From contig QNQO01000525.1 of assembly GCA_003290165.1 (NCBI GenBank), forward strand, positions 310,001-374,000: 64,000 nt of DNA, written 5' to 3'. Position 1 is the stretch's first letter, and every line of letters starts with the position of its first letter. A program made the position numbers and the translations under genes. Positions 3,381-50,294 of this stretch are shown here, piece by piece. Source of the stretch: Berberis thunbergii (taxonomy: Eukaryota > Streptophyta > Magnoliopsida > Ranunculales > Berberidaceae). Below the pieces are notes generated by a model. That model was given only the letters and a program-made list of their open reading frames with translations, searched no databases and was not told the DNA's origin.

Positions 3381-3437
<57 letters not shown>

Positions 3438-27049: not shown

Positions 27050-27052
27050 GAT

Positions 27053-27420
27053 CACTACACCAAAAATACCCATTAGCAACGGTTTTGAACCCTGGGGGTA
27101 ACCCATTGTCACGGCTTAGAGTCGTGGGCTGTAGAGGCGTCGCTAAATCCCCAGTAACGGCTAAAAACCGTGGCAAAACATATTAGAAACGGTTTTATGC
27201 TCGAGGACGGTTGATGATTTAACCACGGTTATAAACCGTTGCAACAATGTTAGCCACGGTTTTAAGTCGTTGCAAAAGTTTAGCCACAATTTTAAGCCGT
27301 GGCCAGTCCTAGCCATGGTTATAAGCCGTGGCAAGTCATGGCCACGGTTCTGAGCTGTTGCAATAGTTAGCCACGGTTTTAAGCCATGGCAAAATTTTTT
27401 TTTTGCTATCAAATGACTTT
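27053..27420 (-). repeat. CACTA X-end subterminal module (copy B, inverted)
   Basis: This is the inverted relative of 3,325-3,848, more diverged. It runs from CACTACACCAAAAA through ACGG/CCGT palindromes to TTTGCTATCAAATGACTTT. Confidence 0.85.
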
Positions 27421-27452
27421 TAATTACATCTTATAGGTAAGTATAATTCAGC

Positions 27453-27690
27453 ACGTGCATCAATTCTTGCATCAGGTAAGTAAAATTTAATATGACTTTT
27501 TATTAAATTTAAAAACAACATTTACAACCTCTGATCAGCAAATTCCAGCAATTGCTTTCAAGCAATTCATTACAGCAGCAACATTTACAATTCATTAGAG
27601 CAGAAATTTAGATCATTTACAATTCATTACAACACGTGCATCAATTCAGATCATTCACAACCTCTGATCCGCAAATTCCAGCAATTTGTT
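27453..27690. repeat. Local direct duplication, about 130 bp apart
   Basis: ACAACCTCTGATC(A/C)GCAAATT occurs near 27,527 and 27,656, and CACGTGCATCAATTC near 27,453 and 27,636. This marks an imperfect tandem duplication next to the pyrophosphorylase fragment. Confidence 0.65.
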
Positions 27691-27884
27691 TTTTCAGCAA
27701 ATTCAATAATGCGCCCTTCTTCGTCAATTTTCATCAGACCAAATGCAATGGCACGTTGTTCATCCATTGGCAGCGCAACAACAGTGATGTCAGCATTTGT
27801 TTCTCTATGAGCTTGAATAAACTTCACATAGATCATACGATATAGATGATCTCCAGCAAGAACCAAAAACTCCATCACATTGCT
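27690..27884 (-). pseudogene. ADP-glucose pyrophosphorylase small subunit fragment
   Basis: The minus-strand frame reads [34 protein letters not shown] and [17 protein letters not shown], the nucleotidyltransferase core of the plastid small subunit. That enzyme makes ADP-glucose from glucose-1-phosphate and ATP for starch synthesis. About 63 codons remain of roughly 520. The usual KPKG following EFAEK is replaced by unrelated residues and a stop. The Asp of the DYEKF motif is changed (RMIYVKF). It lies just inside the X end of the outer CACTA element, the last of its fragments in the Y-to-X direction. A captured piece, not functional. Confidence 0.9.
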
Positions 27885-29319
27885 TTTTGGCAAAAAGAAT
27901 GGGAGAAAACAACCATATCGAGAACATTCTTGGACTACTAACAACAAAGTAATACCTCTAGAAGTAATATCTCTTCATCTGCATTCCAGTCTGGACATAT
28001 AAGAGGGAACGAAAAATTGTTCTGTTGAACAAAATATACAGAAACATTTTAAGAAACCTAGCAAGTAAGAAATAAATAAACCTTCTTTGTCTAATCTCTT
28101 TCTTGAAACAGTATAACTGGATGAGAACAGAATAAGTTAATAAACCAAACTAAGACAGTTGTATTAAAAATGTCAAGCATACATCATCATAATCGAATAA
28201 GCAATGTAAACCGCTAAAATCAACAGAAAGAAAATAGTTAAATAGGAACAATGTCTCTTCTTATAAAGAAAATAATAATAATTATAAAAGAAATCAGTAT
28301 ATCATTGATATCAATGGTTAGGCAATGTTATGAGGCAACACTTTATACGAGTCTGTTTGATGTTTATTTCCTTTTTATTCAACGTAAGGAGAAATTTTCA
28401 AGATGTAAATTTTCTAGGAAGCTGTTATTTCTTCTATCATGACTCCTAAAAATTGAGGATTCACGTTCAGTTAAGGTGGTTTTCTGTGTATTCGGTGCTG
28501 CCTACAGATAGATCATCTCCAAGGAGAAAAGTGCATTTTTTGCTTGTCATGCACTTTATAAGAAAGATGAAAAATTAGTAGATCATGTCCTCATTCATGT
28601 GACTTTGCTAATTGATGGTATGTTTGTTTACATAGAATCATATTTCATGGAGTGTACCCCACATTTGATGTCAAATGTTATCAATGAGATTCATCCTCAT
28701 TCCCAGACTGTCAACATTGAGAATGCAACTAAGTGACACAGACCAAACACTTGTGACTTTAGTTCATTCTTCACATATTTCTTCGGCCATTAGACGACTG
28801 GTAACATCCATACATGCTCATCAGAACTCCCCTCAACCACCAAATTTAATAGTTAAAATGAATTTTAAATCTTAAGAGTAGTCCACTTTTCATATTAAAA
28901 TCGAAGTCTAAAGCTTAAATTTTCCCAACCCATGGATACATCATATTGCTATTGAGGCCAATTGAGTATATGTTTCTTTGTTTCATTACCTCTTTTGCAA
29001 TTAAGTTAAAAAACATTTAAACCAATTAAGCTAGAATACCCAAATGATCATGCTCATAACAATACAAACACACAGACATGGCTAAAGAAGACTATTGAGT
29101 AAATCATGTTGATGGTCTATACAGAGTAGCAGACTCAAATCCCTCCAATTGAAATGCTCCCTTGTACATAATAAACACTAGTGCTTAACAAAAGTCTCAA
29201 AAGTTGCATTGGGGAATATACTAAGAGCATTAAGGGATTTGCTCTAGGAAGAGTATAGAAACTCACAAGTTTCCCATGGAAGCATATTTACAAAAATGGA
29301 AAGGAACCAGGGACCAGTG
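27885..29319. other. CACTA interior, nothing recognised
   Basis: AT-rich sequence, probably intron and linker sequence between captured exons. No frame on either strand resembles a known family. Confidence 0.5.
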
Positions 29320-29540
29320 CAATACCCTTTTTGTCTGGATTTGCTTCTTTGAATGACTTTCTAAAATCATCCCTACAACAAAATTCATTCCAGTTAGAGT
29401 TGAAAACAATGTTCTTAGCCAATACAATTTATCAAGGAAATACTTACAAAAACATAAAGTAAGCAGTCTGAGGACACTTTGGCATGTTGGGGTCTTTTGA
29501 TTTCCTACTCTTCTTTGCTTATGATGATGATTTCACTACC
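29320..29540 (-). pseudogene. HMGB-type HMG-box protein fragment, two exons
   Basis: The upstream exon (ending 29,448 at a GTAAGT donor) carries a basic stretch, SRKSKDPNMPKCPQTAYFMF, equivalent to the PKRPPSAFFVF start of a plant HMG box. The next exon starts at 29,371 after TTGTAG and reads DDFRKSFKEANPDKKGIALV, helix I of the box. The two join in frame across an intron of about 76 bp. HMGB proteins are abundant chromatin architectural proteins that bend DNA. Helices II and III are missing and a stop lies in the basic N-terminal part. One of the minus-strand fragments of the outer CACTA element. Confidence 0.7.
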
Positions 29541-31234: not shown

Positions 31235-31341
31235 TTAAACTCTGCTGCTTGGTTGTTTGCTCCTATAGCTGCAGCCTACCACCCACCATAGTTTCCACTG
31301 GGATCACTCATGTATCTGGAAGCCAAAGTTCTAGTCCCATC
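31235..31341 (-). pseudogene. 20S proteasome alpha-4 subunit fragment
   Basis: After a TTTGCAG acceptor the minus strand reads DGTRTLASRYMSDPSGNYGGW, a stop, then [35 protein letters not shown] is a hallmark of plant proteasome subunit alpha type-4, part of the outer ring of the 20S core. The Lys after GGW has become TAG, and the start of the exon (normally WDANYGFQL) is altered. The rest of the about 250-residue protein is absent. Captured fragment in the outer CACTA element. Confidence 0.85.
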
Positions 31342-32897
31342 CTGCAAATAGAAATGAAACACCAAATGAGTTAACCATGCCATAAGCAAACCGGGATTTA
31401 AGTTGAAGTAAAGCTTACCACCTTTGTCAATGGTATTCAAACATATCAAAATGTGTGAAACAGTGATGCCAACTACAATAACACACACACATATATCAAA
31501 ATTTCATAAACAAGCAGCTAGAAAACCTTAATTTGTTTCCCTCGCCTCACACATCAATATCAATAACTACAACTACAATAACACACACAGAGACAAAAAA
31601 AGTGAATTTTAAATTCAGATTGAAAAGCAAAGGGAGGTAATGCAGTCTGGATGGTGCAGGAAACTAATCGGAAATAGATCGAGAGAAAGAGAGGATACCT
31701 AAAGGAGAACTTCAGTAAGGCAGTAGTGAAATCAAATAAGAAAGTTGGGGCTCTACAGTAGAATGTGATGTAAGCAGAGGTTTGTAACTCAAATGTATTT
31801 CCTGCAAAGTTGAAATATAAAACTTTACTTCTTTCTCAAAAATAAATAAATAAATAATCATCAAATATTATTGCATAAATTGTGTGTATGATAAATATTA
31901 TTGAATAAATATTATTACTGTGTGGACACTGACGATATTCAACTGCAATTCGAATTCAATTCTCTGAATTGAAATTATGGTGCAAGCATTCCAAATTTTG
32001 AGTTCTCTTCAACACCTACAAGGTCAGCAAATATACTTAGGGGAATAACAAGTCCAATACACAACCTAAATAGCAAAAACACTCAAGCATGAAGGCTTTC
32101 TTCCCACAAAAAAATGTTATATTCTAAATAGCAAGGCAGCATAAGAATCTTGAAAGAGTGTATGACTCTTGGAAATATATTATTTTGGTGCATAAAAAAT
32201 TCCCAAGTTTTGGACAACAAAAACTAAAATAATGGGGGAGAAATCACTTGATTCCCCCCAGATCCCACAATCTCGACTAATCTTGCTGTAGAAGTCCCTA
32301 ACAAGTCTAGATAAATATGAAACCTTAAAATACTAGAACAATAACAAAAATTTGGATGAATGATGACAAATGCAGTGACTGAATTTAAATAACTCACAAG
32401 ATTTGACAACTGAATGTGGGAGACTCTCCCCTTTATAAAAGTTCAGCCTAAACCTAAAGAACATAACACCCACTTTAAGAAACTTCACAAGCAACCCACG
32501 AAAAATTGACTCACTTGAACAATGAACTCTCAGTCTTGCAGCTTTTGAACACCATCTTATCCAAAATCCATTATACAACAAGTTATTTTTTCTAATTGAA
32601 TGAAGAAACACTTTCAATCAAAATGTCAATCCATTTATTAAACTAAAAGTAGTAGTATAAGTAGCAGTAGTAAGCAACCAGAGCAGCAGAATAATGTTAT
32701 AAGCACCAGTTCCATAAACCAACATGACACTCAACATTGTAGCAAATTCATGCATGATAACTTATCTATCCAAAACCAAAGTGAAGGAAGGAAGGAAGAA
32801 AGTATTCACATACGCACGTACCACATACGCGCGACCTGAAGAAATTTGTTTTTTGTTTTTTATAAATTAAGATAGAAAAAAGATGCTCATGTATTAC
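31342..32897. other. CACTA interior, nothing recognised
   Basis: AT-rich linker or intron sequence between captured exons. No supported frame. Confidence 0.5.
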
Positions 32898-33028
32898 CTG
32901 CTCTCACCTCCAAAATGCAGTCCCTTTCATTTGCATCATCCTTAGGAAGAATGGACATGAGCAGCAAGTTTTGCAATTGTTCTTCCTTACTTTGAGATAG
33001 TTGAGTGCAAGATTCTATCCTTGTGATC
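32898..33028 (-). pseudogene. Organellar peptide chain release factor 1 fragment, one exon
   Basis: A 131-bp minus-strand exon lies between TATGCAG and GTAATAC. It encodes RITRIESCTQLSQSKEEQLQ, then LLLMSILPKDDANERDCILE and VRA. The LPKDDA(D/N)ERDCILEVRAG stretch is the start of the domain preceding the GGQ loop in bacterial-type release factor 1 of plant mitochondria or plastids. That factor ends translation at UAA and UAG. The catalytic GGQ part and the rest of the protein are absent. The exon itself is open and its splice signals are intact. Captured fragment in the outer element. Confidence 0.8.
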
Positions 33029-34611
33029 CTGCATATACGATCAAATGAATTAATTCATAAGCTTTTTCCTATTTTTTTTATTCAGAGCGCAGACTCCATG
33101 AAAGAAGGGGGCAATTTACCTTAAAATGAACAATCACGTGCCCGTAGTGTATTTTACTCAGCTCCTCTTTTGCTGCCACCATTACATTGCTTCCAACATA
33201 GTTGTAACTATCAATCATCAAGTTCCACATGATTTTTACACCATACAAAGACCAGGTTACCAACATATGTCATGAAGATGTGAGTGTCATCACCACATCT
33301 AAAAGAATACCTACAAAGCGATATATGTAGTCACAAGTTTCATAGTAGACATATTTTGTGTAATAATATGAAGATGGAATCCATAATATCTGTACTTGAT
33401 GTTGCTGGTACTAATGCTTCAAACAAATCTGTATCATAATTTACATCCCCAACTTGTATATGATTTAGAAGATGACGTTCACACTCTTAACAGTTTGGGT
33501 GGCTAAGCTGTTAGGTTAATCACGATTGATATTTTACTTGTTGGGGAGAAAGGGTTTTGAGCTAAAACAAAACAAGGAAATTTCAACCTTCATGGATATC
33601 TAGCAGTAGGGATGTAAAGATATTGCAGTTGATTGAATTAACTTTTGTTCTGCATGTTCATTTCGGGGAGCTTTCAAACATACTTAAATAACTTGTAACA
33701 TGTATCTTGTTCATTCATAAAAATTTAAGCTTCACAACAAGGGAAGTTAAAGGCCACATTTCGGAGAAGTTCAGTCTATACAGAACATCAGTCTCCTTAT
33801 CAGTTTCTTCAATGGAGGTGACAAACAAATAGTTAATTAAAATTCTTTGAACAGAATAACAATAATTATTTGAAGATAATTCTTTGAACAGTTCAAGAGA
33901 ACGGTGCCGATACTAGGTTACCGCTAGTATAACGAGGTGTTCATCCAAGAATTGTTCTTAGAATTGTTTTGAGAAAACAAATAGAGCATACTCAAGAATG
34001 AGAAAAGGAAAAGGTGGGGAAGGAGACCACGTATTTGTCAAACTCTGTTTGTAGAACTCCAAATAACAGGGACACTATTGGTGTTGGGCACAAGTTTGAG
34101 CATCTGACACATCACTAAGAAACTTGAAGAAGCCAACAGATAAGTATATATGCAATTTTTTATTAGGTACATTATTCTAGTTAAAAGACCTAAGCTGTTA
34201 TACCCTGCACCAACGTAATCTATACAAGTGTAACTGTGATCATAAATATAGCTTAACTCATGTTATTACTTGGCAGGATAGACTTTTCCTAGTGATTTGT
34301 TGACCTTGTAGATTACATATACAAAGTTTGAAAATATGAGGGAAAAAATGAAATATGTCCTAGATTTCCTTGACAACTAAAGTCAATAACAGACATGAAT
34401 TTTCAACTCCAACAAGATTCATCTCATCAATACCTCAACAGCAGAATAATTCTTTTATGTATAAATATGCCAAGAAATTGAGGAAAGAAAACATAGAGAG
34501 TATTAAGAACCAAGTCAGAAAAATTTCCAGATGACTTGCAGGTTTCACTATCTAGCAAAACAGGGAGTGCATGCTACACATGTTCCTATTTAGAAAACAT
34601 CCTACTGAAAA
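33029..34611. other. CACTA interior, mostly unrecognised
   Basis: A minus-strand frame at 33,078-33,266 includes YNYVGSNVMVAAKEELSKIH and ends at a GT; it may be another captured exon, family unknown. The rest is AT-rich without features. Confidence 0.35.
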
Positions 34612-35015
34612 CCCTACACCAAAAGGCCGGTTTAGCTACGCCGAGATGGCCACGGTTCTAAACCGTTGGTTTATTTGCCACGGCCAAACACCGTAGCTAT
34701 AAGTACCAACGGCTTAAAACCGTGGGTAAAATAAACCTGGCCACGGCTTAGAACAGTTGGTATATTTGGAACGGCTAAACACCGTAGCTAGTATTAGCAA
34801 CGGCTTCAAACCGTGGGTACTATTAGCAACGGTTAAAAACCGGTGCAAAAAAAAAAAATTAGCAACGGTTTATAACCGTGGCTATGTATAGCAACGGCTA
34901 AAAACCGTGGATAAAAAATTACACCAAAACGGTTGCCACGGTTTTAAACCGTGGCTAAACTTGCCAACGGTTTATAACCGTGGCTAAACTCGCCAACGGT
35001 TTAAAACCGTAGCTA
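34612..35015 (+). repeat. CACTA Y-end subterminal module (copy D)
   Basis: The terminus is followed by about 20 degenerate ACGG...CCGT palindromes 15-20 bp long, such as CAACGGTTTATAACCGTGG. A TTACACCAAAACGG motif at 34,920 looks like an internal terminus relic. The first 44 bp match the inverted sequence at 50,251-50,294. Confidence 0.85.
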
Positions 35016-35550
35016 TCTAATTTACACTTTTGCAATTTGGTGAAAATATTTTCGCGCTTTGGCGAAAAAAATTGGGGAGAAATAGGTTCTCACTCTCTCC
35101 ACAGCTCCAGAAGCACGGATTCTCGAACCAGAGAAGAAGAAGAACTCAAGAAGGAGAGGACGATTTCTTTCTTCTTCTTCTTCTTCTTTAGATCTTGAGA
35201 GAACTGAACTGAAGAACATGAAATTGGAACTCCATTGTCAGTTTCTTCTTTCCAGTCGATTTCTTTCTCTCTCCGTCCAAATCACAAGTAGAAGAAGCAT
35301 CTAAGCATCTCACCCCCTTCAGCTAGTAATAATCGCGTTGGAACCCCAGGTTGGCCCATTCTTCCAAATCTTAGTTTCTCTTTCACTCATTCTCATTATC
35401 AACCATTGGGTATCTTCTAATCAACCACAAAATCAACCAAATGATCACAGCAAGAAATGGGTTTGTTTTTCTGTTGAAACTAAATTTTGAACCCTCGATT
35501 TTGAGGGTTTTCGAGTCAACTCTCCGATTTGATTCAACGATCTAGTCGTC
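35016..35550 (+). other. Leader between Y end and clathrin exon 1
   Basis: Untranslated sequence with a (TTC)n tract near 35,166-35,189 and CT-rich stretches. It resembles a plant 5' untranslated region and may include the captured clathrin leader and promoter. Confidence 0.4.
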
Positions 35551-38500
35551 ATGGCGGCCGCAAATGCTCCGATCACCATGCGAGAGACTCTCACGGTGAC
35601 TGACTCTTCTATTCTTTTATTGAATATTGTTCAGTAGCTCTATTTTTTGTATCAGTTGTTTAAAATAATTTTATTCGATCTGATTCTCGATTGATTCACT
35701 CTTGAACTTCGAATTCAGTTAAGTTTTGGTGAATTTTTGAGTCAAGATTTGGTGATTGTGTCGATCATGACAGATCTGTAGTATAAGTCAAGATTTGATT
35801 AGTTCAATCTAAGTTTTTTCAACTCAATTATGCAATTAAATGCTGAAAGATGTTTCGTAATCCGATTCATTGTGTTTGCAGCTTCTGAGCGTTGGAATCA
35901 ATCCGCAGTTTATCACCTTCACTCATGTTACTATGGAATCTGAGAAGTATATGTGTGTTCGGGAGACTTCGCCACAGAACAGTGTTGTGATAATTGGCAT
36001 GAAAATGCCTATGCAGCCATTGAGAAGACCTATCACTGCCGATTCGGCCTTGATGAACCCAAATTCAAGAATTCTTGCTCTCAAAGGTTTGGAGTTTCTT
36101 ATTGCGATTAATAGTGTCCATATTTTTCTATGAATTCGCGGTATCTAATGAATGCACAGAGTCAGTAGGTACTCTAATCGAATTATTAGTAGATGATTCA
36201 ATATTTTAGTTACATTAACAATGCCTTGCATTTATCTTGTTCATCACTGCAATCTGTTTTCAAACTCAGCATTTACGTGATTTGTAATGTACACCTCGTT
36301 AGTGGTACCATGAGCAAAATTTTTGGCTAGAAGAGTGAAAGAAACAAAAATATTCCATTTATGTAATGCAGATTGTAAGTTGTTGATTAATTAGCTGATA
36401 TTAAATTGGTGATTAATCTCTTTTTGCTAGTAGAGCGTTATATTTTTGAACTAATGGTTTGAATAATTCCTTGGCCGAGTAATCGGCGAATATTTGCTAA
36501 TTCAACTATTAATCACGATTAATCTCTTTCAAAAGTCACCAATTAATCGGTCCATAGCAATGTAAAAAAATCGTTTTTCCCCATAACCTCATTGAGAGAA
36601 CAACCAAACGAATGATAAGCAAAACTAAAGAATATTGCACCTTTGACATTGAATTCTTTATTTTGTTATAATTTGCTTTAAAATGTGACAACTGATGTTC
36701 ACTACTTAAATACACATTTTTTTAGAATTAAACACATTACTTAGAAGGATAAAGAAATTATGTTTATAAAATATAGGCTGATTAATTTTGATTAATCCCG
36801 ATTAATTTCATATCGCTCATTAGGGTCCAATTAATAATTGAGATTCACAAATGACAAGTGACCTTTGCAATTGGGAGGGATGGAAAACTTATGAAGATGT
36901 GACTCAATTTGCCATCTACTAGGCATTCTAAACGCAATGATTAGTGATAATATCGATTTTGTTCACATTACATATAAAAGCAGATTACTATACTTTCCAA
37001 GTGCTGAAATTTTGTTTTTGTTTGAAGCTCAACTTCAAGGAACCGCGCAAGATCACTTGCAAATATTCAACATTGAAGCAAAGGCAAAAATGAAGTCTCA
37101 TCAGATGCCTGAGTAGGTTATAATTGCATCCTGTTTACTTTTCCATCATAAAAGTATCTTTGTTTTTTTGTTGGAATAAGGCTAATTTTTGCTTATTTGT
37201 TGTCATTCATCCAGGTTGTCTTTTGGAAATGGATTACCCCAAAGACGTTGGGTTTGGTCACTCAAACGGCAGTATATCATTGGTCAATTGAAGGTTGATA
37301 TTTGGTTTGCCTTTTGATAGCCAAGTTTTTTTTTTCTTAGTTTGTTTTGTTTGCAAATTCTGAATTGAATTCTGTCATGATATATGTTTGCATGGTGTTT
37401 ATCCAGGCGAATCACAACCTGCTAAGATATTCGAAAGAACAGCTAATTTGGCGAATAATCAAATTATCAACTACCGATGTGATCCAACAGAGAAGTGGTT
37501 AGTCTTGATTGGAATTGCTCCTGGCTCAGCTGAGGTGTGTGTTAACCTTATAGATCATGTATTTCTGTTACTTTTTTCAAGGCAAACCAATCATTCAGAT
37601 ATTGTTTATTGTTGCATCCTAACCGATTACTCCACCTGACATTATTCGTCTTCCATACATCCAATTTGATTGATTGTTGACTGCCGAAAAAGTGAAAAAG
37701 TTACACATTATAAATTAAGTAATTAACAACATACACATTTTCTTAAACATCGAAAGTTTTCCCTGATGTTGTGGTGGACATATTTTTGTCAGGAGTTTTG
37801 AATTTGACTTGGAGCTTTATGCATGGAATACTACTAGAAAGAAAAAGCTATTACCTGACAATCTAAATGCACTAATACATACTTACTCTGCTCTTTCTTT
37901 TCCAGGAAAGGAGCATTTAAGTGATTTTAAAATGTTTTTGTGTTGTTTTGCTACAAGATCGTTACATGAGTTGTTTGCCAGATCTAATTGGGTTACCACA
38001 GTTAGGGATGTGGAGTTGTAAGCGAGCATCATTAGTCTGATCTGTCAATTGGTGTTTAAGCACCTCACAATTACACATCTTCATCGATGATCATTGGTTT
38101 TGGTTTACTGTAAAGAATGGTTTCATTGGTGTTTTCATGCTTATATGTAGACTACATACTAGAGTTGTAAAGAAAAATCCTTGCATGGTCCATTGAGTTG
38201 GAAATGGATGAATATCGCGGATCAGTTTTGTTGATCCGAATCTCGCATCATAATGATAATATATTCTTGTGAATTATTGTACACTAATCGATGCCCTAAA
38301 CCGTTGTAGAGATCGGTGCTAGGAGTCTTAATCAAAGATTTTTCTTTTGTTATTTGATAGGATGTCATATGAATTTTCATCAACATGTTCCTTTTTTATT
38401 TCTAGTTGTGTTGTGTGAAGCAATGTGCCAGTTCTTAAGAGATGAAGACAACTTCAGTTTGAGATTACTGTTACAAAATTTTGTCACATGTCATCCACTA

Positions 38501-39639
38501 TTAATGTGCTTTCCATTGTTTTTGTATATATTAGGACTATTGTAATCTAAATCATTATTTTGTATCTAAATTTCTCACTTTCTCAGTGCTGCATTTTATC
38601 ACAGTTGTTTTGTGCTTTCCCTAATCTCATCAAAGTATCATGAAAGGTTGTTTACTTGTAATATATACAGAATGTAGATGCTAGTATCATTTATTTTTAG
38701 ATCCTGATTCTCAAATTCAATGGTATGGTATTTTTCTGGTAGCATTTACTACTGTACTCTAATTTATTTTTCATTTGTTAAACTCAATTGCAGAGGCCTC
38801 AACTAGTTAAGGGGAACATGCAACTTTTCTCTGTGGATCAGCAGCGTAGTCAGGCTCTTGAAGCACATGCAACATCGTTTGCTTCATTCAAGGTGCGACA
38901 CGTTTCTTTCTCTCATTTTTTTTGCTTTTTAATTTTGATTGTATTTCTCCTATTGACACTATATTCTTTTTGGCGTTATGCTCAGGTCCCTGGGAATGAA
39001 AACCCTTCTACGCTAATCTGCTTTGCCTCAAAGACTTCCAATGCTGGACAACTTACGTCAAAGTTGCACGTGATTGAGCTTGGTGCCCAGCCAGGTTATT
39101 ATATATTTTCCGTGTCTCTTATTTAGGCAATGGATAACCATTGTGTACTCCTTATTATCCATGATTAACTAACACTCTCCCCTTTTGTTTCTCGTGCCTT
39201 TCTTGTGTTTACTTATTTTGTTAAATTTGGTGCTGATTTTTTGAATTTGATATGCAGGGAAGCCGGGCTTTTCAAAGAAACAAGCAGACCTTTTCTTCCC
39301 TCCAGATTTTGCTGATGACTTGCCACTGTAAATGAAGCAACCATTGTGCCATTTGTCAGCGGTCAAGTAAGTCTTATAGATTTACCTTTTTAGTTACTAA
39401 CATAGCAACTGAAATGTATTTCTCACGAGTGTGCTCTTGCAACTGCTATAGCTAAACAATTTGGAGCTTGCTGTTAGTCTTGCAGTACTTTGGGACATTG
39501 TTAACTAAAGGAAAGCTCAATGCATTTGAGTCTTTGGAATTATCTCGTTTAGTTGTGAATCAGAACAAAAAGAATTTTGGAGAACTGGTTGGCTGAGGAT
39601 AAACTTGAATGCAGTGAGGAACTCGGAGATCTTGTCAAG
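35551..39639 (+). pseudogene. Clathrin heavy chain, N-terminal multi-exon fragment
   Basis: Exons with GT-AG borders: 35,551-35,595 (MAAANAPITMRETLT), 35,882-36,086, 37,028-37,116, 37,215-37,293, 37,407-37,534, 38,794-38,892, 38,986-39,094, 39,258-about 39,364 and about 39,453-39,639. They cover the seven-bladed beta-propeller terminal domain and linker of clathrin heavy chain, which coats endocytic and trans-Golgi vesicles: [66 protein letters not shown]. Lesions: the Gln ending exon 3 is TAG; exon 8 jumps from DFADDLP to a later LATVNEATIVPFVSGQ part; exon 9 joins NLELAVSLA to [20 protein letters not shown], with a frameshift near KKN. The remaining two thirds of the about 1,700-residue protein is absent. 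First fragment after Y in the inner element. Confidence 0.93.
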
Positions 39640-40414
39640 GTATGGTTAGGAATCTTAATATTGAATGACATTCTGCTTTACAGTTTCAGTTATGTCAAAT
39701 CAATTCTAATCTGAATATTCAATAATTTTTTTCTTTTTTTTTTTCTTCCTGAAAACTCTTTCATGTATCTTCGTGAACTCCGAATCTCTGGTTACCCAGT
39801 CAGTTATATCCTGATTATTGGGTGCTTATTTTGAAGTTATATTGTATGTATCCGTGTAGTCATTGGCCTGAAAAGTAGTTGCTTTAGCACCCTTCTAGAA
39901 CGCTTGGTTATAATTATCACAACTATCATGCCACCAACACATTTCTTTGCAAGCTTTAGTTTTGATGAGAAGCCCATCCAGTGCTCTACCATCATTCCAC
40001 CATCACCACCTATTTAGTCTTAAGTGAAACAAGTTACTCCCAACGTTGTCTATGCGGCGTAACACTTGTTCTCCATTCCTAAACAAAGAACTCCATGCAA
40101 CAAATCTTCTAGAATTTGGTGTAGTAGGCTCCAGCTCGTTCTATGGTTTTTCTATTCCACCTCTGCTTCATTATTTGAAGTTTCTAATCCATTACATGTT
40201 CTTTCCTTTATCTATTTTCTTTTGATACTATTGCTGTCCTTCTTTGGATGTACAATGGATTCTAACTGGGCACAGTAGGTGTCAAGCCTACACATACAAT
40301 AGGTTGGCTGATTGGATGAAATATCCAGTTTATCATGTTGAAATCTGTGATTATAAGATCTTGAACTAGACTAAATTGATCAATTTGTACCTCATTTGTA
40401 TTTATATTTTGTAG

Positions 40415-40813
40415 GAAGGCCCTACTCTCAAAAGCAGGGAAAAAGCTGGCTGTGCGACCAGATTGCAGTTTTAACATGGAGGTCGTTGTTAATAATGTCA
40501 AGGGAGTGGGAGTACTTTTGGCTTCGGCTGCTTCTCTCCACTCTTCTTGCAGTCTGTATTGGTACAATATTTTTCAACCTCGAGCATTCTCTGTCATCTG
40601 TAATGGTGAGTTTCTGAAATTCTACGTTGTGTGTTTTTAATTTTAATTTTTTTGAAGTTTCTGACTTTATTCAACAGTAAAAGAGAGCATCAAAACATAA
40701 CCCAGATATCCCAACAATTTTTGCAGGTGAGAGTTGCAGCGGTGTTTGTCTTTGTATCGTTTACTTCTCTCATGAGTATTACTGGTTTACCTGCTCATAT
40801 AAAAGAAATCAAG
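40415..40813 (+). pseudogene. ABCG half-transporter fragment, two exons
   Basis: Exon 40,415-40,604 encodes AVLTWRSLLIMSREWEYFWL, RLLLSTLLAVCIGTIFFNLE and HSLSSV. Exon 40,727-40,813 encodes RVAAVFVFVSFTSLMSITGL followed by PAHIKEIK. This is the start of the ABC2-type membrane domain of a plant ABCG (white-brown complex) half-transporter, closest to the ABCG3-like kind as I recall it. The ATP-binding domain and most membrane helices are missing. Splice borders are intact (TTTGTAG, GTGAGT, TTGCAG, GTAACC). Same strand as the clathrin fragment; captured by the inner element. Confidence 0.8.
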
Positions 40814-41095
40814 GTAACCTTGCTTCCATTTTTAGCTATAAGCAGTACTAGAGCATACAAGTTGAGTATATATACAATAAATCCTCAAATTCAATTGTTC
40901 TTTCACCCATTAGTTAAAGGTTTCATGTCTCTGTCGCTCACTTGCTTTTACTTGTAAATTGTTACGAAGGATACATGCATGCTCGAAGCATTCAAACATG
41001 AAATGAAGAAAATTTGAAGAAGGGTACTAGGTCAATCTCCTCCACCCAGAAAAGTTGCCCATTGATCATAATGCCCTTGCTTTCAGAGCGGAAGC

Positions 41096-41919
41096 TCAGG
41101 TACAACAAGGTCAGTGAGTGACTCAGTGATTTCAGCTCTGTTTCTCACTTTCTTGTTTGTGGGATTTTAGGTTTGTGTGTAAAGTTGTTGACTTTGCGGT
41201 AGGTGATTGCCCAAGCATCAGCAGCAGGGGAATCTGAAGCTCAGCAAGAGGTTTTTGATTGGACTTCTGTAATTTTGCCGTAAGTTCTTATTCATACCCA
41301 TTTTAGCAAATTTGAGGTCCCAGTTTCTAATTACATTTTTGCATTTTTGATTACCATACACATTCTTCACTGTTGAGCTTAGCTGTATGAAAGTCACAAT
41401 CTTAAAAAGTAAAGAAATGTGAATGAAGGATGACTTCTTTTGATCACTTATTAAGAACTACTTGCGCTGTGCAGACGTCACAGTATACCAAGGGTTGAGG
41501 TTGCTTGTCCCTGGTATCTGTCAAGAGGTTATTATAAAGTATAGGTATTAGCACTTATAAGAATAAATTGAATATGCAATGGGCATCTACACATCAATCT
41601 AATTCTTCATATAGAATCACATGGTATTGTTCGCCATTCTTGTTTATGAAGATGTTGTCTTCTTACAGGTTCTTATTCCCAGCTTTAGGGGGGTTACTAT
41701 TTGGATATGATATTGGTGCCACCTCTGGAGCTACTATCTCTTTGCAGGTTCCTCTTATTTTAATTTTGTAGTTGTTTTCCCCCTTCCTTTATTTTTTTTA
41801 TCTCTTTATCCCAACCAACTTCACTTTGGTTGATGCCATTTTTATTTTCATCCTGACAGTCAGCCGAGCTTAGTGTCATGACATGGTTCAACCTGACATC
41901 AGTACAGCTTGGTCTTGTG
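41096..41919 (+). pseudogene. Plastid-type sugar transporter (MFS) N-terminal fragment, four exons
   Basis: Exons about 41,096-41,119, 41,203-41,279, 41,669-41,747 and 41,860-41,919. They encode an acidic lead-in (ASAAGESEAQQEVFDWTSVI), the first membrane helix and MFS motif FLFPALGGLLFGYDIGATSG, then SAELSVMTWFNLTSVQLGLV. The frame is kept across introns (LP-FLFP is split CC|G TTC). It matches chloroplast-targeted D-xylose-proton symporter-like proteins, members of the sugar porter branch with twelve membrane helices; only the first is here. Captured by the inner element, same orientation as its neighbours. Confidence 0.8.
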
Positions 41920-42210
41920 GTACATTTCGTGCTTGAAATTTGTTGTGAAGCATAAGTGTTGGAAACAATTTTATACGGTGGATTTTACTCAAAATTCACA
42001 TTGAATGTTACGTTAATTGCAGTTACAAATTATGTTTTTGTGTACCTTCTATATCATTCATGCACCTTGCTTGTTTTCTCCTCCCTTCACAAGCCCTCTC
42101 ATTATCTCCACTTGTCCTTCCCGTTCTCCTCCTCCTCTCTCACTTGGTATACTTGTTAGATCATTAGACCAAGAGGTATATCTAAAAGGCCCTCTAAATA
42201 AAGAAGACAT

Positions 42211-44195
42211 ATGTCTTTAACGATGCAAACCCCAAATACCCAATGTTCTTCTCCATCCACACCTTCACCCCTTTCTCGAATTTACAACACAGAATCTCAA
42301 ACCCCTGCGTCTGCCTTCAGTTCTCCATCACCTTCTTCATTACGCCACTGGAGACCTGCAACACAACGAAACCTGAAAAACCAATGGTTAAAACTGCTCT
42401 CTCATAAACAACAATGGTTCTCAGCATCATCAAGTGGCAGGAATCACGCCATTGACCTTGCCAACAAGTATCTCTCTCGGATGTATATACAAGATCTTTG
42501 TATTTTTTCAATTTGTCACTTGTATTGAATTTGCTCGGCATTAGCGTTTCTAGGGCACAATTTGGCACACATTATTAAGGTTTTGTCTGATGAATATTAT
42601 TGACTTAGGTACTTACCAGCAATGGATTTGGGTGTTTTAAAAGATATGCCAAACATTCGATAAAAAGCTGGCCAGAAATTAGCGAAGCAGCAGGTAATTT
42701 TGGGTTCGACTTTGGTTATTGCCATACAGTATGACATGCGTCTGTGATATTGCAGTGGGGTATGAATTTTGTAAAACAAAAAACTGCGCATTTTTACAAG
42801 AAATTAAGGCCCCTAATTAGATTAAGAAGCAATCCCCATTCCTTCAGTATCACATATGTTTTGACATCTGATTCAGTAAAATTGTTTACTTAGTTTTTTT
42901 GTGCTGGTTTAGCTTTACTTATAACTAGCCGTTTCCTCAAGGGTGTTGGTGAATTAGTGTGAATCATCTTTTTAGAAAAGAGTAGAAGGTTGTTTCAAGA
43001 TGCCAATAAGGAAAAAAGGAAGACAATAGCTACATATCTCACTGTCTTACGCTAACTTGTGAATGTGGTGCCTATCAATAAATTCATCTTACTGGGAAAA
43101 ATGGATATGTGCATATATCATGTGTGTGTGTGTGCACGCTCGTGTGTTGAAGCTTCTTAAGTGATGTCAATTTTATTGGATAAGGTTTGAAAAGTGTTTG
43201 TCAATTAGGTATTATTCCATATAACTTAGTTACTATTATAGGGATTGGGAGATTAGCATAAGCATCCCAAATCTGGAATAAAATGCATGTGAGCTTGTGT
43301 ATGGAAATTGCTTTATAAATTTGTTTCTTCATATTTTTGGCTGTCTTACATTGTTTAATTGCTTCATTTCAGGAGCTTTACCGAAGCAATTTCTTATCAT
43401 CCTACAAGGACATGGTACGTGTATTTGACATCCTAATGACAAAAACACCTTATTAGTGATCTTTAGATGTTACCATACTGCAACTTGACACATTGGATTA
43501 AAATAATCGAAAACACTACCACACTCGAGAAGATTATATAAACATCTAACAGATCTGCATTCTCGGCAGAGATGCATTCCTGTTTCCTGGTAAGAAACCC
43601 CCACATGTAAGTGTTGTTTTAGAGCATGAAACATGTGAAGCAGGTCAAACCCAAATTTCTCCGGACCAGTGTTAGCAAATCTGTATGAGTTTAACCTCAT
43701 GACTAGAAGAACTTCTCTGGCATTTAAACAGGTTAAGAAAGAAACATAAGTAAATGTGCTTATGTGAATATGGATTTTGTTTTCTTCTTTTCATAGTTTC
43801 GGTAGTTCTGAGTATATATCTAGACAATATTTGCCGTGTACAAGGTATATCATGAAAGAAAGAAATTGTTACTAACTTATTGTATCATTATTATCTTTCT
43901 TTTAGTAAACAAAAAGGTTTATTTCACTAATGTTATTCTTTGAGTTGTGTGATTAATGTAATGTCATTCATGTCTAATACATGTAAAACTTTTGAGTTGA
44001 CTAATTCTCATTGATCTCACCAACAGGTACATGCTGTCTGTCAGATGATCAACACCTCTAGCTCTATGAGGTGCTTCCTTAAAGGACCAGTTGGCAGTTC
44101 GCTTGTACAATTTTCAAATTGTTGTGAGAATGAAAATGACCTTGGTGATGGTGGAGGGTCCCCGGTCTTCACATTTTGGTCAGTTTCATATTTTG
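42211..44195 (+). pseudogene. Conserved-looking Ser-rich plant protein, fragment of unknown function
   Basis: The first exon starts at ATG 42,211 with a Ser/Pro/Thr-rich N terminus, then LRHWRPATQRNLKNQWLKLL and NHAIDLANKYLSRM. Further exons with clean borders are 42,609-42,693 (YLPAMDLGVLKDMPNIR, then a TAA stop, KAGQKLAKQQ), 43,373-43,414 (ELYRSNFLSSYKDM) and 44,027-44,195 (INTSSSMRCFLKGPVGSSLV and GGGSPVFTFWSVSYF). The exon phases fit one another, so it derives from a real spliced gene. I recognise a conserved plant protein but cannot name it. The in-frame TAA in the second exon and the missing 3' part make it non-functional. Captured by the inner element. Confidence 0.6.
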
Positions 44196-45394
44196 GTATG
44201 CTTCAAATCGTACAAAATTTCTACTTTTTTAATTTAAAAGTTGAGTGTATGCTTGCACGAATACCATGGAAATTATGTGCCCAACAAATTTGTTTTAAAG
44301 GGGTCTCCAGTCATTGTTTCCCCCTTTGAAAATGATTTTACTCATATTTACACATGCATACCAACACTCCAACAGGGTCTTCATGAACACCCTCCATCAA
44401 CAAAACCACATCTCCTCATGAGTGCCACCACCACAACATCACCACCACCACCACAAATCTCATAGCTGCTGCAACATAATAAGTGATTGGTGCATGTTCT
44501 TGGTGGCATCACTATGCAGAACAAATCTATCTTTACCAAGACCCATCAAGAGGATCATCTTACCACTAAATCTGTGACTATTGGGGCCTTTTTTTATTGC
44601 CAATCAGGTCCCATATAAGTGACTGCTTGCCACAATTCCAACACCTACCAAAAAAATTTATTTTCTTGTTACCATTTTTTTTTGCCTTAGCACATATGAA
44701 GCTGCAACTTCGGCCTTGTTACTTGGATTAGGCTCCTTTTGTCTTCTCATATCAGGGTGTCTTGCATGAAATCTTATTTAACGACTTGACTCTTTACCAA
44801 CGGTTTTTAAATTATGTACAATTGAATTGAAACTCAAAGTACCTTCATCTATAGGCAATGTATGAAATTCTTCCTTCGTTCGTCATGCAGCAAAGATTTT
44901 TCAATTGTTCGCAAAACTCTTTAGCCAAAATAATTTCCTACCCTGTACACGTTGTTTGCTAAACTGCATTCCAATAAGTTTTCCCATTCGTCGTCATTTG
45001 TGTCTAGCAACACGGTTTCTTCAGTACACACATGAAGACCCACCTCTTACTATAAAACTTTTAGGAATTCCATTAAGTTCATTGATGAGTGCACATCAAA
45101 GTATAAAATCCAATGTGTTTAAATCAGTACTGACAGATTGTTTGTCAATTGGCAGTAAAGCAGGGCGTCCAGTCTCGGACAAAAAGATTTGATGGTAATC
45201 TACTTCAAATTCTTCTTGTGGAAGATGTAGCATTGCAATTGAAGCCTCCGAGCTTATGGCTGAACATTCAAGTGAGTAAAGTGAACTAGTGATTGCAACT
45301 TATACTACATTTGAGTTTCCAGTCCATCTAGACAGTGGTTCCCCATATCTTAATTTTTCGACCGTAAGCCTTGTAAGTTGTAACAAGAATTCAG
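44196..45394. other. CACTA interior, nothing recognised
   Basis: A CCA/CAC-rich low-complexity patch lies at about 44,420-44,460. An open frame at 44,905-45,192 has no recognisable relatives. Probably linker and intron sequence. Confidence 0.4.
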
Positions 45395-45600
45395 AAGTCG
45401 CAAAAGATGCTCTTATTGCTGAGTATGGCCAAAAATGGAAAATGACCAGTCTCCAATCTTATGCATTCATGGGTCTTGCTGCTGGTAGCATTTTGGGCAA
45501 CTTCTTTGGCGGTTATTTCTTACTCAAGACACAACCCAAGACAATGTTTCTTCTGTTCGCTCTTTTACTATCATTTCAGATGACTATTTCCTTGACTATC
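45395..45600 (+). pseudogene. Folate-biopterin transporter family fragment
   Basis: An open plus-strand frame encodes SEVAKDALIAEYGQKWKMTS, LQSYAFMGLAAGSILGNFFG and GYFLLKTQPKTMFLLFALLL. This resembles a central cytosolic loop and two membrane helices of the plant folate-biopterin transporter family, membrane proteins with about twelve helices. Flanking sequence on both sides departs from the family, so only one exon remains. It is the last fragment before the X end of the inner element and shares the plus orientation of the others. Confidence 0.65.
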
Positions 45601-45676
45601 ATTGTATTTGAGATATTATTTGATAGATTTTGACTCAATGTAATACATTTTCTTATTAATTACATTACTTTGCCTC

Positions 45677-46174
45677 CATTATTTGATAGATTTTGACTCA
45701 ATGACTCAAAGTCATTTGATAGCAAATATATATATATATATATATAATTAAAAAACAAAATTTTGCCACGGTTTTAAACCGTGGCTAACTATTGCAACGG
45801 CTAACAACCGTGGCTACCTTGCCACGGCTTATAACCGTGGCTAGGGTTAGCCACGGCTTAAAACCGTTGCTACTTAATTAGACACGGTTTAAAACCGTTG
45901 CTAGTATCCATACTTTATCACGGCTTAAAACAGTGGCTATTTTTGCCACGGCTAAAAACCGTTGCCATTCTTCTTGCAACGGTTTAAAACCGTGGCTAAA
46001 TGCTGAAAATCACCACCCCTATTCAAGCAAAAAACCGTTGCTACAATGTTTAGCAACGGTTTATAGCCGTTACAAAGAATTTCGCGACGCCTCTGTAGCC
46101 CACGGCTCTTAGCCGTGGCAATGGGTTACGCCCACGGTATAGAACCGTTGCTAATGGGGGTTTTTGGTGTAGTG
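45677..46174 (+). repeat. CACTA X-end subterminal module (copy C)
   Basis: Nearly identical to 3,325-3,848 apart from an (AT)n tract (45,726-45,746) in place of (ATA)n. A partial second copy of its first 27 bases (TTATTTGATAGATTTTGACT) lies at about 45,614-45,640. Confidence 0.85.
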
Positions 46175-46268
46175 AAATAACAGGATATAACAATCTTCAT
46201 CATGATACTTTTATTGTATTCATTGAACAACTTAATATAAACAAAGCGGTAGTAGTATAGAATAAAAC

Positions 46269-46474
46269 CTGTATACATAATTTTATCCCATTTCTGCTCC
46301 AATAGTGAGATGTTTTAGAAACAGCACCTTCAACAACTCTTATAGCAGAGCTATCTAGATACTCTTCTACGAATCTTGCAACTAATGAAGACGTAGCTGG
46401 AGAAATTTCTGATGGTTTCAAGACCACAGTATTACCAACTGCTATTGTTCCATTGACTGGATCGAAAGACAACA
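46269..46474 (-). pseudogene. Aldehyde dehydrogenase family 3 fragment, one exon
   Basis: A minus-strand exon lies between TTTCAG and GTTTTA. It encodes LSFDPVNGTIAVGNTVVLKP, SEISPATSSLVARF and EEYLDSSAIRVVEGAVSKT, then after a frameshift LEQKWDKIMYTG. This is part of the NAD-binding domain of ALDH3-type enzymes, which oxidise fatty and other aldehydes; VVLKPSE is a hallmark. The catalytic Cys and Glu regions are absent. It lies between the inner CACTA insertion and the helicase fragment and belongs to the outer element, in its Y-to-X direction. Confidence 0.88.
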
Positions 46475-47059
46475 CTGAAACAAAATAAAAGAAACTTTAA
46501 TTTTTCTTCACAAAATAAAATAAGATAGTCACTATGGATGACTATAGATGTAACCAACACGAGCAAATGTAACATAAGAGAGTATAAAGGGTGTTGGGTG
46601 CCAAACTTATGTCAAGTAAAAAAAGAAAGTTGAAGTCATGCAAGATCATATCCAATTTTACAGTGCCATTCAAGTAAACTATAGGAGTACGAGTATCTGA
46701 AAGACTTGCTGCCTACAGAAAGGGTAGTTCCATGTTGAAATGATCTATATAACGCCTAGTGGTTCTGACACAATTTCAGCTGTTGAAGGGAAAGTTGTAA
46801 TTGTTGTTTTAGCCTGAAAAGTATTAGAAGATTCACATCATATGTTTGTGGCAGCTACAGAATGAACTGCATAGCATGATTGATAATTATTTTCACATCT
46901 AAACTTATGGAATGGTTCTAGAAGCATTACCTTTTCTAGCTTCATCCAGTGTTTTAGTTCTTTAAGAGTCACGGTACATGAAGTCTTTAACATGTTTGTC
47001 AAACCCATCCTAATAGTGAACCATAACCAAATTAGACACAACATATGCCAAAATAGACA
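46475..47059. other. CACTA interior, nothing recognised
   Basis: AT-rich linker. Short frames without similarity that I can support. Confidence 0.45.
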
Positions 47060-48412: not shown

Positions 48413-48517
48413 ATAACAAACAAATATTAGCCAGAGCTCTGTAATAACTCACAATCAATCAAAGTAGACAACATAGTTTTTAGTTTAGAAAAGAAAAAAA
48501 ATCATCATAATACCTAC

Positions 48518-48757
48518 CAATAAGTCTTCTGGTAGCCTCTCCAACATTGACATGTCCGAGCTCCTCCTCGCACGACATGGCTTCTTCAATGGAGTTTTAG
48601 AAGGGGAGTAGAGACACAATGGTTCCACTTGCTTCCTCCCCATTGATCCCATGAGCCTAACTACGCCATATACTTTTTTTCCTTCATCAATATCAGAATC
48701 CATCATCTTATTAGGGCAAGTTATTGACAATGCCATTCTTTCTTCTTTAAACTCCAA
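48518..48757 (-). pseudogene. F-box protein first exon (FBS-like)
   Basis: The minus-strand frame from ATG 48,736 (or the in-frame ATG 48,757) reads MALSITCPNKMMDSDIDEG, then YSPSKTPLKKPCRARRSSD and MLERLPEDLL. It stops at a GTAGGT donor after 48,518. The end is the first helix of an F-box, as in small stress-induced plant F-box proteins (FBS group), substrate adaptors of SCF ubiquitin ligases. The rest of the F-box is not present downstream. This is the Y-proximal fragment of the outer element and includes a natural start codon. Identity is moderate; an unrelated protein with a chance LPEDLL match is possible. Confidence 0.45.
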
Positions 48758-50114
48758 GCTTAGATCTGTATCATTGGATAGAGTACTTGGAAGTTAATAA
48801 CAACATACAAAAAGCCCCAATTTCACATAAACATCCAATCATTTTTTTTTTATCATGAAGTTGAACAATAGCCAAAACCAAATCAAATCCCTCAACCATG
48901 CAAACCCTAAATTTCTCAACTAAGATAAGCCGCAAATCAAACTATTCAAAACCCTAATTTACACAAGTAAAGAAGCAAACAATTGTTACATCCAACTAAA
49001 ACAAAATCCTCAAAACCTCAACCTTCAAAGACACCAAATCTCTACATTGAAAACCCCTAAAACCAACTATGAAATAAACATATCGCCTCATTGTGCTAAA
49101 CACAAACAACAAGCAACCAAATAGTCCGTTTCAAAACACTGAAACAAATCAACGACCAAATGTACTGAACCCCAAATGAACAAACCCCTCAAAACCCGAA
49201 GCTTCTCAACCACCAAAATCCCCAAATCTGATAGTCTTCCTTCCAAAATCCCAACTTTCTGCAGAATGAACAAAACCCCACCATTTCTAACTCGTCAATA
49301 ACCACGAGTCTGAAACCCCATTAATTCAAAACCGCTAAACCCATCAAAACCCAAAGCTTCCTAACCACTGAAATCCCCAAATCTGACCTTCAAAATCTCA
49401 ACTTTCCGCATATTGAACAAAACCCCAACATTTCTAACTCATCAATAACCACAAATCTGAAACCCCATTTATTCAAAATCAATAAACTCATCAAAACTAA
49501 CCAAACCTTCCTAATCACTTAAACCCCAAATATGACTAACATCCCTTCAAACTTGAAACACATAAAAATCAGAAATTGAATAACACCCAACATTTCTAAC
49601 CACAAATCCAAACACCCCCTTGCTTCAAAACCCCGGACACTTCATCTACCAATCAAACTAAACGAATCAAACAACCAAAACAATAAACAAACATTTTTTA
49701 TTTGTTACCTGATGAACACTTGAACAAAACTTTATCCTTACTCTTTCCTTGCGAACTCACTCACGACAATCTCTCTATCTCTATCTCCTTCTTCTACGTG
49801 CAGCAAAGACAGAGTCCAAACTAAAAAATTGTACCCCAAACTTCAAAAACAGAGTTCAAACATTCTTTTTCTTCTTCGACGAACTCTCCTTCAAGAACCG
49901 GAGAAGGGACGCAAAAACATTTTTAGGGTTTCGGGAGATCAGTGTGTGCTTTCGGGAGATCTGTGGGGAGATGGAACAAATTTTAGGATTTGAAACAAAA
50001 GGTTGAAAAGTGCAAAGTTGGGGGGAGAATGCAAAGTGGGAATGCAAATTTTTTTCGCCCGCGAGAAATCGACTCGACTTCTCCACACATCCACGTGCAA
50101 CACACATGTAATTT
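48758..50114 (-). other. Intron and untranslated leader between F-box exon and Y end
   Basis: Read on the minus strand, a CT/GA-rich leader near 49,709-50,000 ends at a GTAACA donor (CATCAG|GTAACA). A long AT-rich intron-like stretch follows, with repeated AACCCCAAA motifs. It then meets the F-box start. It looks like a captured promoter and 5' untranslated exon. Confidence 0.45.
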
Positions 50115-50294
50115 AGCAACGGTTTTAAGCCGTTGAGCACTATAGCCACATTTTTTAACCGTGGCAAACACACCAACGGTTTAGAACTGTGGCCAAGCCT
50201 TTTTTTAACCACGGTTTTAGGTCGTTGGCCATTATAGCCACTGTTTTTGGCCGTGGCCACCTCCGTGTAGCTAAACAGGCCTTTTGGTGTAGTG
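50115..50294 (-). repeat. CACTA Y-end subterminal module (copy E)
   Basis: Degenerate ACGG/CCGT palindromes end in GGCCTTTTGGTGTAGTG. Inverted, its first 44 bp match 34,612-34,655 with few differences. Confidence 0.85.

Follow-up and report, generated by a model that had tools for sequence, protein, structure and literature searches.

Pack-CACTA and Pack-TYPE elements of Arabidopsis, rice, and maize carry pieces of host genes between non-autonomous CACTA ends and mix the blocks of related elements; the available sections of these reports state no rule for direction relative to the captured gene (PMC8903248, PMC13317346). In Ipomoea nil, CACTA members of the Tpn1 family share common ends and have captured genic regions, an HMG domain among them, and a Tpn1 element makes chimeric transcripts. 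The family hallmarks are a 28-bp terminal inverted repeat (TIR) and subterminal repeats of 122/104 bp, the 5' and 3' subterminal regions having unlike repeats, which by description resembles the elements reported here; a direction rule was not found in the sections available (PMC5105172). The soybean CACTA element Tgm-Express1 contains five fragments of host genes, together with portions of introns, that are spliced as exons of a single transcript, and the words "orientation" and "antisense" are absent from the text available (PMC1947982). Their joint splicing implies that these five fragments share one direction. Tgm-Express1 differs from the elements described below in its length (5.7 kb) and in transcripts that initiate at the host F3H promoter, outside the element (PMC1947982).

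We analysed a 64,000-nt stretch of the Berberis thunbergii genome (assembly GCA_003290165.1, contig QNQO01000525.1, positions 310,001-374,000, forward strand; hereafter the window). Its elements are Pack-CACTA-like and differ from described Pack-CACTA elements in holding several genes each with introns kept, in measuring approximately 8-12 kb where both ends are seen, and in being strictly one-way relative to two distinct ends, Y and X; this strict one-way rule is their unusual part. Helitrons, unlike CACTA elements, are rolling-circle transposons without TIRs or target site duplications (TSDs), and their gene fragments show a sense bias. Maize Helitrons likewise capture many gene fragments stepwise, and the sense bias was not found in the available text of PMC3288121.

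Two nested CACTA elements in opposite directions

The window contains two nested CACTA elements and part of a third family member:

27053..50294, minus strand: outer CACTA element, Y end on the right and X end on the left, split by the inner element
27053..27404, minus strand: outer X end, terminal repeat and subterminal repeats
50067..50294, minus strand: outer Y end, subterminal repeats and terminal repeat
34612..46174, plus strand: inner CACTA element, Y end on the left and X end on the right
34612..35015, plus strand: inner Y end, terminal repeat and subterminal CCGTGG/CCACGG-type repeat array
45763..46174, plus strand: inner X end, subterminal repeats and terminal repeat
1..3848, plus strand: third family member, truncated by the window start, X end on the right and Y end outside view

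The Y and X ends of each element are mutually distinct, and Y to X reads minus in the outer and plus in the inner element. The nested arrangement proposed in the initial annotation agrees with the ends and with the TSDs, which are GAT/GAT for the outer element (27050-27052 and 50295-50297) and AAA/AAA for the inner element (34609-34611 and 46175-46177). Three ends of the nested pair, as well as the X end of the third element, carry the terminal inverted repeat CACTACACCAAAA without mismatch, while the fourth, the inner Y end, reads CCCTACACC and thus opens with CCCTA where CACTA is expected. Short subterminal repeats run in both directions; a 16-base repeat core is matched 61 times in the window, where 0.66 matches would be expected. 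CACTA-starting terminal repeats, a 3-bp TSD, and bidirectional subterminal repeats place the elements among the CACTA (En/Spm) transposons, and the host gene fragments within non-autonomous copies place them among the Pack-CACTA type. A Pfam scan of 17 of the 18 frames of the inner and outer elements found no transposase (TnpA/TnpD) family, and both copies are therefore considered non-autonomous; this lack is compatible with CACTA membership.

Both elements are multicopy in the genome. A Y-like end was within reach in four distinct fetched elements. Of these, L034 (GGC), L041 (AGT), and L043 (AAT) have matching 3-bp TSDs, and L051 has no matching TSD. In a scan of viral contigs the X end had no match, and the Y end had a lone exact 17-base match (L001), which we took as chance.

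Captured host-gene fragments read from Y to X

The following host-gene fragments were recognised, listed together with one unconfirmed open segment (Pfam cut-offs are the curated ones):

35882..39645, plus strand: clathrin heavy chain, Pfam cut-off reached, PDB match
40416..40815 (approximate ends), plus strand: ABCG (ABC2_membrane), Pfam cut-off reached, two exons and an intron
41670..41920 (approximate ends), plus strand: sugar transporter, weak HMM match (E 0.027-0.034), two exons and an intron
45385..45600 (approximate ends), plus strand: BT1 (folate/biopterin-type transporter), Pfam cut-off reached
46262..46775 (approximate ends), minus strand: ALDH3-type aldehyde dehydrogenase, Pfam cut-off reached, PDB match
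32897..33030 (approximate ends), minus strand: release factor PCRF, weak HMM match (E 0.055 and 0.0012)
31240..31340, minus strand: proteasome alpha-subunit, weak HMM match (E 0.011), one nonsense codon
31123..31200, minus strand: SNF2 helicase (DDM1-type), below the Pfam cut-off (E 3e-4 and 2.3e-5)
29312..29500, minus strand: HMG box, below the Pfam cut-off (E 9e-8 and 2.9e-5), PDB match (1.4e-6)
27690..27892 (approximate ends), minus strand: NTP_transferase of the glucose-1-phosphate adenylyltransferase (AGPase) type, Pfam cut-off reached
85..192, plus strand: inorganic pyrophosphatase in the third element, likewise Y to X
48516..48736, minus strand: open segment initially called F-box, without database support

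The clathrin fragment consists of seven ordered exons, read by eye, with introns; it carries one nonsense codon and one frameshift, and the middle of the gene is absent. The ALDH fragment has exons with an intron and frameshifts, and the HMG-box fragment has two exons separated by a short intron. Since the exons hold stop codons and frameshifts, no selection on protein is visible. The BT1 fragment is joined to the X-end module of the inner element. Visual inspection of motif and exon ends is an additional basis for the proteasome and sugar transporter names. At the proteasome/DDM1 junction, most scored matches are copies, complete or partial, of the captured stretch at 96-98% identity.

Ten of the twelve fragment names initially given to the nested pair have database support, three of them weakly, and all 10 run from Y to X as had been claimed (two-sided p ~0.002, assuming independent captures). 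The other two did not hold up. The F-box segment had no Pfam match, with 0 of 470 candidates scored in a protein search, and is left out of the counts since it lacks database support; the inner segment listed as unknown found no support, and other inner segments tried gave no Pfam match at the cut-off. The PDB search gave no match for ABCG and BT1, and on the sense side of the outer left arm it had the HMG piece as its sole query; 10 further sense-side segments had no Pfam match.

A uniform direction could also arise if only sense fragments had been noticed, given that inspection by eye of a single window produced the first list. Both strands of the window were scanned, with the gaps given here. 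The whole-frame antisense Pfam scan covered eight of nine frames (all but the third plus frame of 46175-50294) and detected no family, and the PDB search gave no antisense match over its coverage, which excluded minus 34612-35299. Twenty long antisense segments yielded four Pfam matches, all below the curated cut-off. The best was DUF7698 (E 0.0085), part of which shadows an exon on the sense strand, and another was SelP_N (E 0.017). Since two antisense segments scored at these values, an HMM E-value near 0.01 alone is not evidence.

Strand-blind census of the host genome

The initial annotation had proposed counting fragment orientation across the family. An X-end search of the host genome gave 1464 first-look candidates, and the count was run on a sample of 14 further X-end regions in the same genome rather than on the entire family. 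Open segments were named by eye with the strand concealed and shared blocks masked beforehand; pieces shorter than 48 residues were left out. The blind set omitted the inner, outer, and third elements, which had been seen previously, L032, a 98% copy of the inner element over 10,017 bp, and L044-L048, which are probable haplotype or assembly copies judging from their flanks and 99-100% identity. In L036, L037, L038, L042, and L050, named pieces were assumed to lie within the element, since 10 kb was fetched without a Y end.

The census comprised 476 open segments, 253 plus and 223 minus, 425 of them without a host-gene name (7 of these are gypsy). All 51 named host segments were sense, corresponding to 21 of 21 element-by-gene sets, three of which had been marked weak before unblinding. 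They add 20 genes, three named weakly. When the count is limited to elements with both ends in view and matching TSDs (inner, outer, L034, L041, and L043), 20 of 20 genes are sense. No antisense host fragment was recognised among 31 genes (for six of which the name or the support is weak), and a mixture of strands is rejected for the recognised host fragments. Naming in the census was again by eye but strand-blind, and chance or ascertainment as the source of the rule is refuted at the depth sampled and scarcely credible.

Shared interior blocks of at least 200 bp, counted with the copies L044-L048 and L040 omitted, run in the same direction in 62 cases and in the opposite direction in none (69.8 kb in total). 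The elements are mosaics of co-oriented shared blocks, and the window's inner and outer elements are multicopy, as would be expected if one ancestral one-way set of fragments had spread by block inheritance or exchange and direction were mostly shared history. Against so few independent events, the 31 genes are distinct, lie mostly in separate elements, and were counted after masking of shared sequence; moreover, the direction of each gene's first capture cannot come from shared history. We consider this explanation improbable.

Retained introns and splice-like signals

Introns are retained between exons in the clathrin, ABCG, HMG-box, ALDH, sugar transporter, and PDR fragments. Capture of spliced transcripts, one mechanism put forward in the initial annotation, would, if it ran through reverse transcription and the product were linked to a transcript from Y, be expected to yield one constant direction. 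However, the introns in these six fragments exclude a spliced cDNA source for the fragments examined, and we regard such capture as very improbable. Unspliced pre-mRNA may have served as a capture template.

In the non-redundant interior outside the window, donor-like splice sites numbered 57 sense versus 23 antisense (36.2 versus 29.3 in shuffles), in agreement with the sense bias of the named fragments; window donors at a 9-bit threshold showed no bias (6 versus 4). Acceptor-like sites numbered 88 sense versus 35 antisense (68.8 versus 30.0 in shuffles), an enrichment that arises partly because the strand is T-rich. T-richness was seen in 23 of 23 sequences, a set that includes mutual copies. 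The T-over-A excess also runs, in the Y-to-X direction, across the L040 stretch whose recognised genes are antisense (28 of 35 windows), and an excess of T therefore does not mark sense cleanly. T-rich runs are present outside the elements too; of six 500-bp windows lying beyond the Y ends in L034 and L043, three were T-rich.

A leader-like block at the Y end

A recurrent block resembling a promoter and 5' untranslated region adjoins the Y end in six of six Y ends examined. In the nested pair it is located as follows, its function being putative:

35016..35349, plus strand: leader-like block of the inner Y end, with a possible splice donor at 35350, at its edge
49700..50066, minus strand: leader-like block of the outer Y end

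This block is probably a promoter with a first exon, and read-through from Y, also suggested initially, would fit its presence at the six Y ends.

Discussion

Since no exception appears among 31 genes (six weak), unordered repair alone cannot account for the rule, which leaves directional capture or the loss of antisense captures. We favour the latter, giving an even chance to a Pack-CACTA-type transcription unit starting at Y from which antisense captures are lost later. The non-autonomous elements would have two unlike ends, with Y as the 5' end and X closing the element. Pieces of host genes would be taken up as genomic DNA, introns included; transcription would start at Y, and pieces in sense would be spliced through as extra exons, for which the chimeric transcripts of Tgm-Express1 and of a Tpn1 element offer a precedent. 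Elements acquiring an antisense piece would not be retained, possibly because antisense RNA invites silencing of the element or harms the source gene. Against this model, antisense DNA is able to persist, as the inner element sits head-on within the outer one, and a filter after capture predicts some young antisense pieces, whereas none was recognised.

The same absence of antisense pieces would follow if direction were fixed at the uptake of a piece, which we consider possible while holding it below an even chance. Inserted antisense DNA seems to be tolerated, not only in the nested pair but also in L040, where gypsy segments lie in antisense at a location assumed to be within the element. 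The SNF2/DDM1-type fragment has an exact 22-base repeat of its exon end at its upstream junction, and this copied exon end suggests template switching. Repair or fusion might be tied to donor transcription, for example through X-side strand invasion at an R-loop, or DNA-trapping tandem element pairs might favour one orientation to the gene when they insert. However, we know of no capture step that is tied to donor gene direction. Pack-TYPE elements are reported with same-orientation local insertions (PMC8903248), and one published capture model is a fusion of tandem Pack-CACTA insertions (PMC13317346); that model, as far as the available text describes it, orients the two elements mutually and not relative to the gene.

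Should direction indeed be set at uptake, the family could tentatively be seen as a one-way exon collector, whose uptake is inherently limited to the transcribed sense of donor genes with respect to the promoter end; conceivably, and jointly with this, capture would be coupled to transcription, either the donor gene's or the element's own. Transposons that capture genes have been proposed to give rise to new plant genes, and their capture mechanism is unsettled. The one-way rule makes this mechanism directly testable: because a single genome holds multiple copies of the family, dating of the fragments against their parents can separate directional capture from loss.

Nested CACTA elements with one X end and one Y end

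Three members of one CACTA family lie in the window. Y denotes their promoter-like end and X the opposite end; sense is the Y to X direction and antisense X to Y.

27053-50294, minus (Y to X), outer element, flanking target duplication GAT/GAT
34612-46174, plus (Y to X), inner element, flanking target duplication AAA/AAA
X end at 3848, start before the window, plus (Y to X), third element

The inner and outer elements each have one X end and one Y end, with CCGTGG/CCACGG-type repeat arrays just within both. The outer X end begins CACTACACCAAAAATACCCATTAGC..., the outer Y end begins CACTACACCAAAAGGCC..., and the inner element is inserted into the outer one in reverse direction. Since no transposase domain was found in the frames scanned (17 of 18 in the nested pair), both are classed as non-autonomous CACTA elements. 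By eye, the X end of the third element lies inside a copia-like retrotransposon reading minus (3849-6330), and a second copia-like stretch is located on the right-hand side of the outer element (52549-56761). A tandem array outside the elements (24310-24785; period 133, 3.6 copies) and another motif resembling a CACTA terminus, with one mismatch (60595-60607, minus), were also observed.

Captured gene fragments in the window

The initial annotation had claimed that all captured host fragments of both nested elements read Y to X, and the ten fragments with database-supported names are all sense. In Pfam searches of whole frames, with stops written as X, clathrin, aldehyde dehydrogenase, PCRF, NTP transferase, and SNF2 all lie on the Y to X strand, and the antisense frames scanned (8 of 9) gave no family. 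Tighter segments added ABC2_membrane, BT1, the HMG box, and SNF2 (HMG also in the PDB), and gave weak matches to PCRF, proteasome, and sugar transporter. In the PDB, clathrin was matched on the sense strand in five stretches across three frames, the matches listed being in order (residues 13-88, 107-136, 175-220, and 443-470), and aldehyde dehydrogenase was likewise matched in sense. The PDB gave no antisense match, with the sense side of the outer left arm covered by the HMG piece alone, and no match to the ABCG and BT1 pieces. A pyrophosphatase piece in the third element also reads Y to X. The curated Pfam cut-off was reached by 6 of the 11 window genes (clathrin, ABCG, BT1, ALDH, NTP transferase, and pyrophosphatase) and by none of 20 antisense segments run the same way. 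Thus ten of the twelve fragment names first proposed stand, three of them weakly; F-box lacks support in Pfam and the protein search, and the 'unknown' fragment in the segments tried in Pfam.

The captured pieces are genomic DNA. Clathrin, read by eye, retains seven exons with introns between them and order kept, part of the gene being missing, and the HMG box has two exons whose reading frame is continuous over a short GT-AG intron. Introns are also kept in the ABCG, aldehyde dehydrogenase, and sugar transporter pieces, and the captured exons contain nonsense codons and frameshifts. Splice ends are GT/AG by eye, exon ends being partly recognised by those same signals. At the proteasome/DDM1 junction (31123-31260), the 22 bases across the end of the DDM1 exon and the start of the intron recur without mismatch 100 bases upstream of the original, as if the template had switched during capture; near-identical copies of this stretch are present elsewhere in the genome.

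Strand-blind survey of further family members

Fragment orientation was counted in further family members, as the initial annotation had proposed. The window, whose genes are plant-like, lies at C525:310001-374000 of a 2.24 Gb assembly. The inner X end as query against this assembly gave 1464 first-look candidates, of which the 40 that were scored all have at least 99% identity. For 20 X ends, 10 kb of Y-side sequence was taken; judging from flanks and identity, 5 are probably haplotype or assembly copies, leaving 15.

In 14 fetched sequences, with stretches shared with sequences already used masked, 476 open segments of at least 48 residues (253 plus, 223 minus) were read in shuffled order with the strand hidden, and names were fixed before unblinding. 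All 51 named host segments, recognised by eye, were sense; they form 21 element-by-gene sets of 20 genes in 8 of the 14 sequences, and three of the genes had been marked weak before unblinding. Both by-eye names checked against the protein database held: asparagine synthetase and a PDR-type ABC transporter, with exons for its first 813 residues in order. Seven pieces of gypsy retrotransposon, all in one region, L040, were the sole segments recognised in antisense.

With the 11 window genes, 31 of 31 genes are sense (two-sided chance below 1e-8 if independent, also without the three weakly named genes), and the number of independent captures may be below 31. In the strict set of elements with both ends and matching target duplications (inner, outer, and regions L034, L041, and L043), 20 of 20 genes are sense (two-sided chance about 2e-6). 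With 31 genes, the antisense share is at most about 10% (upper 95% bound), for recognised segments of at least 48 residues in a non-random sample chosen by X-end similarity, in which several sequences end before the Y end.

Interior blocks of at least 200 bp common to elements, X ends excluded, are co-oriented in 62 of 62 cases (69.8 kb). The elements are mosaics; for example, L050 shares X-side sequence with the inner element and Y-side sequence with L041. An X-proximal module with the BT1 piece (45024-46174) is common, whole or in part, to many elements with differing Y sides (L032, L035, L038-L040, L043, and L049-L051). In L041, blocks at 5894-7062 (X at right) resemble the inner element's clathrin part at 80-89% and are co-oriented with it; they may stem from a separate or earlier capture of clathrin. 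L039 and L040 have X ends on contig C6650 at 33349 and 22033; the two are separated by 11.3 kb, share the flank CGTATTAATT, and may represent a tandem duplication. Measured from the second X tip, sequence unlike other elements begins at about 1.2 kb in L040, and the antisense gypsy segments lie at about 5.0-8.7 kb.

Y-end block and annotation-free strand signals

Each of the six Y ends examined (inner, outer, L034, L041, L043, and L051, the last included though its target duplication mismatches) has a recurrent block after its repeat array. By eye, form 1 (inner, L034) reads TTTCGCGCTTTGGCGAAAAAA...TTCTCACTCTCTCC, and form 2 or near it (outer, L041, L043, L051) reads CTCGCGGG...TTTGCTTCAAACCCTAAAATTT. 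Among the other sequences of the set, L037 alone has the form-1 core (up to two mismatches allowed), close to its start and reading Y to X (L044 being a copy of L034). The block looks like a promoter-proximal leader, and a possible splice donor follows it in the inner element and L043. The blocks hold TTTCGCGC or TTCCCGCG-like letters (35047-35070; 50030-50066; L034, L041, L043, L051), which are candidate E2F-like sites.

Donor-like sites in the non-redundant interior outside the window number 57 sense versus 23 antisense (shuffles, 36.2 versus 29.3), and in the window 27 versus 9 in one count and 27 versus 12 in another (6 versus 4 at a stricter threshold). T-richness accounts in part for the sense bias of acceptor sites. 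Read from Y to X, all 23 of 23 sequences (copies among them) have more T than A, as do 187 of 227 windows of the non-redundant interior outside the window. Introns are generally T-rich on the sense strand; the T excess fits such introns but is not specific, because the antisense-gypsy stretch of L040 and some extra-element stretches are also T-rich.

Origin of the one-way orientation

A 2026 review of plant gene capture (PMC13317346) describes fusion of tandem Pack-CACTA insertions, and none of the words orientation, sense, or direction was found in its main text. In soybean Tgm-Express1, five fragments are reported to serve as exons of one transcript (PMC1947982), which implies one common direction; Tpn1 elements reportedly capture host genes, and one yields chimeric transcripts (PMC5105172). 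In the portion of the gene-capture literature surveyed, a direction rule for captured fragments was not found stated, and it may be in print.

In the most likely reading, transcription would start at the Y end and sense captured pieces would be spliced through in the transcript from Y. The absence of antisense pieces fits two causes, loss of antisense captures after uptake or a directional capture step. That the capture step itself is directional seems to us a reasonable but somewhat less probable explanation. Two observations favour it: gene pieces in antisense are absent, and antisense insertions seem to be tolerated (the inner element in the outer one; the gypsy segments in L040). Since RNA antisense to a live gene is known to trigger silencing, we lean slightly towards later loss of antisense captures as the source of the one-way rule.
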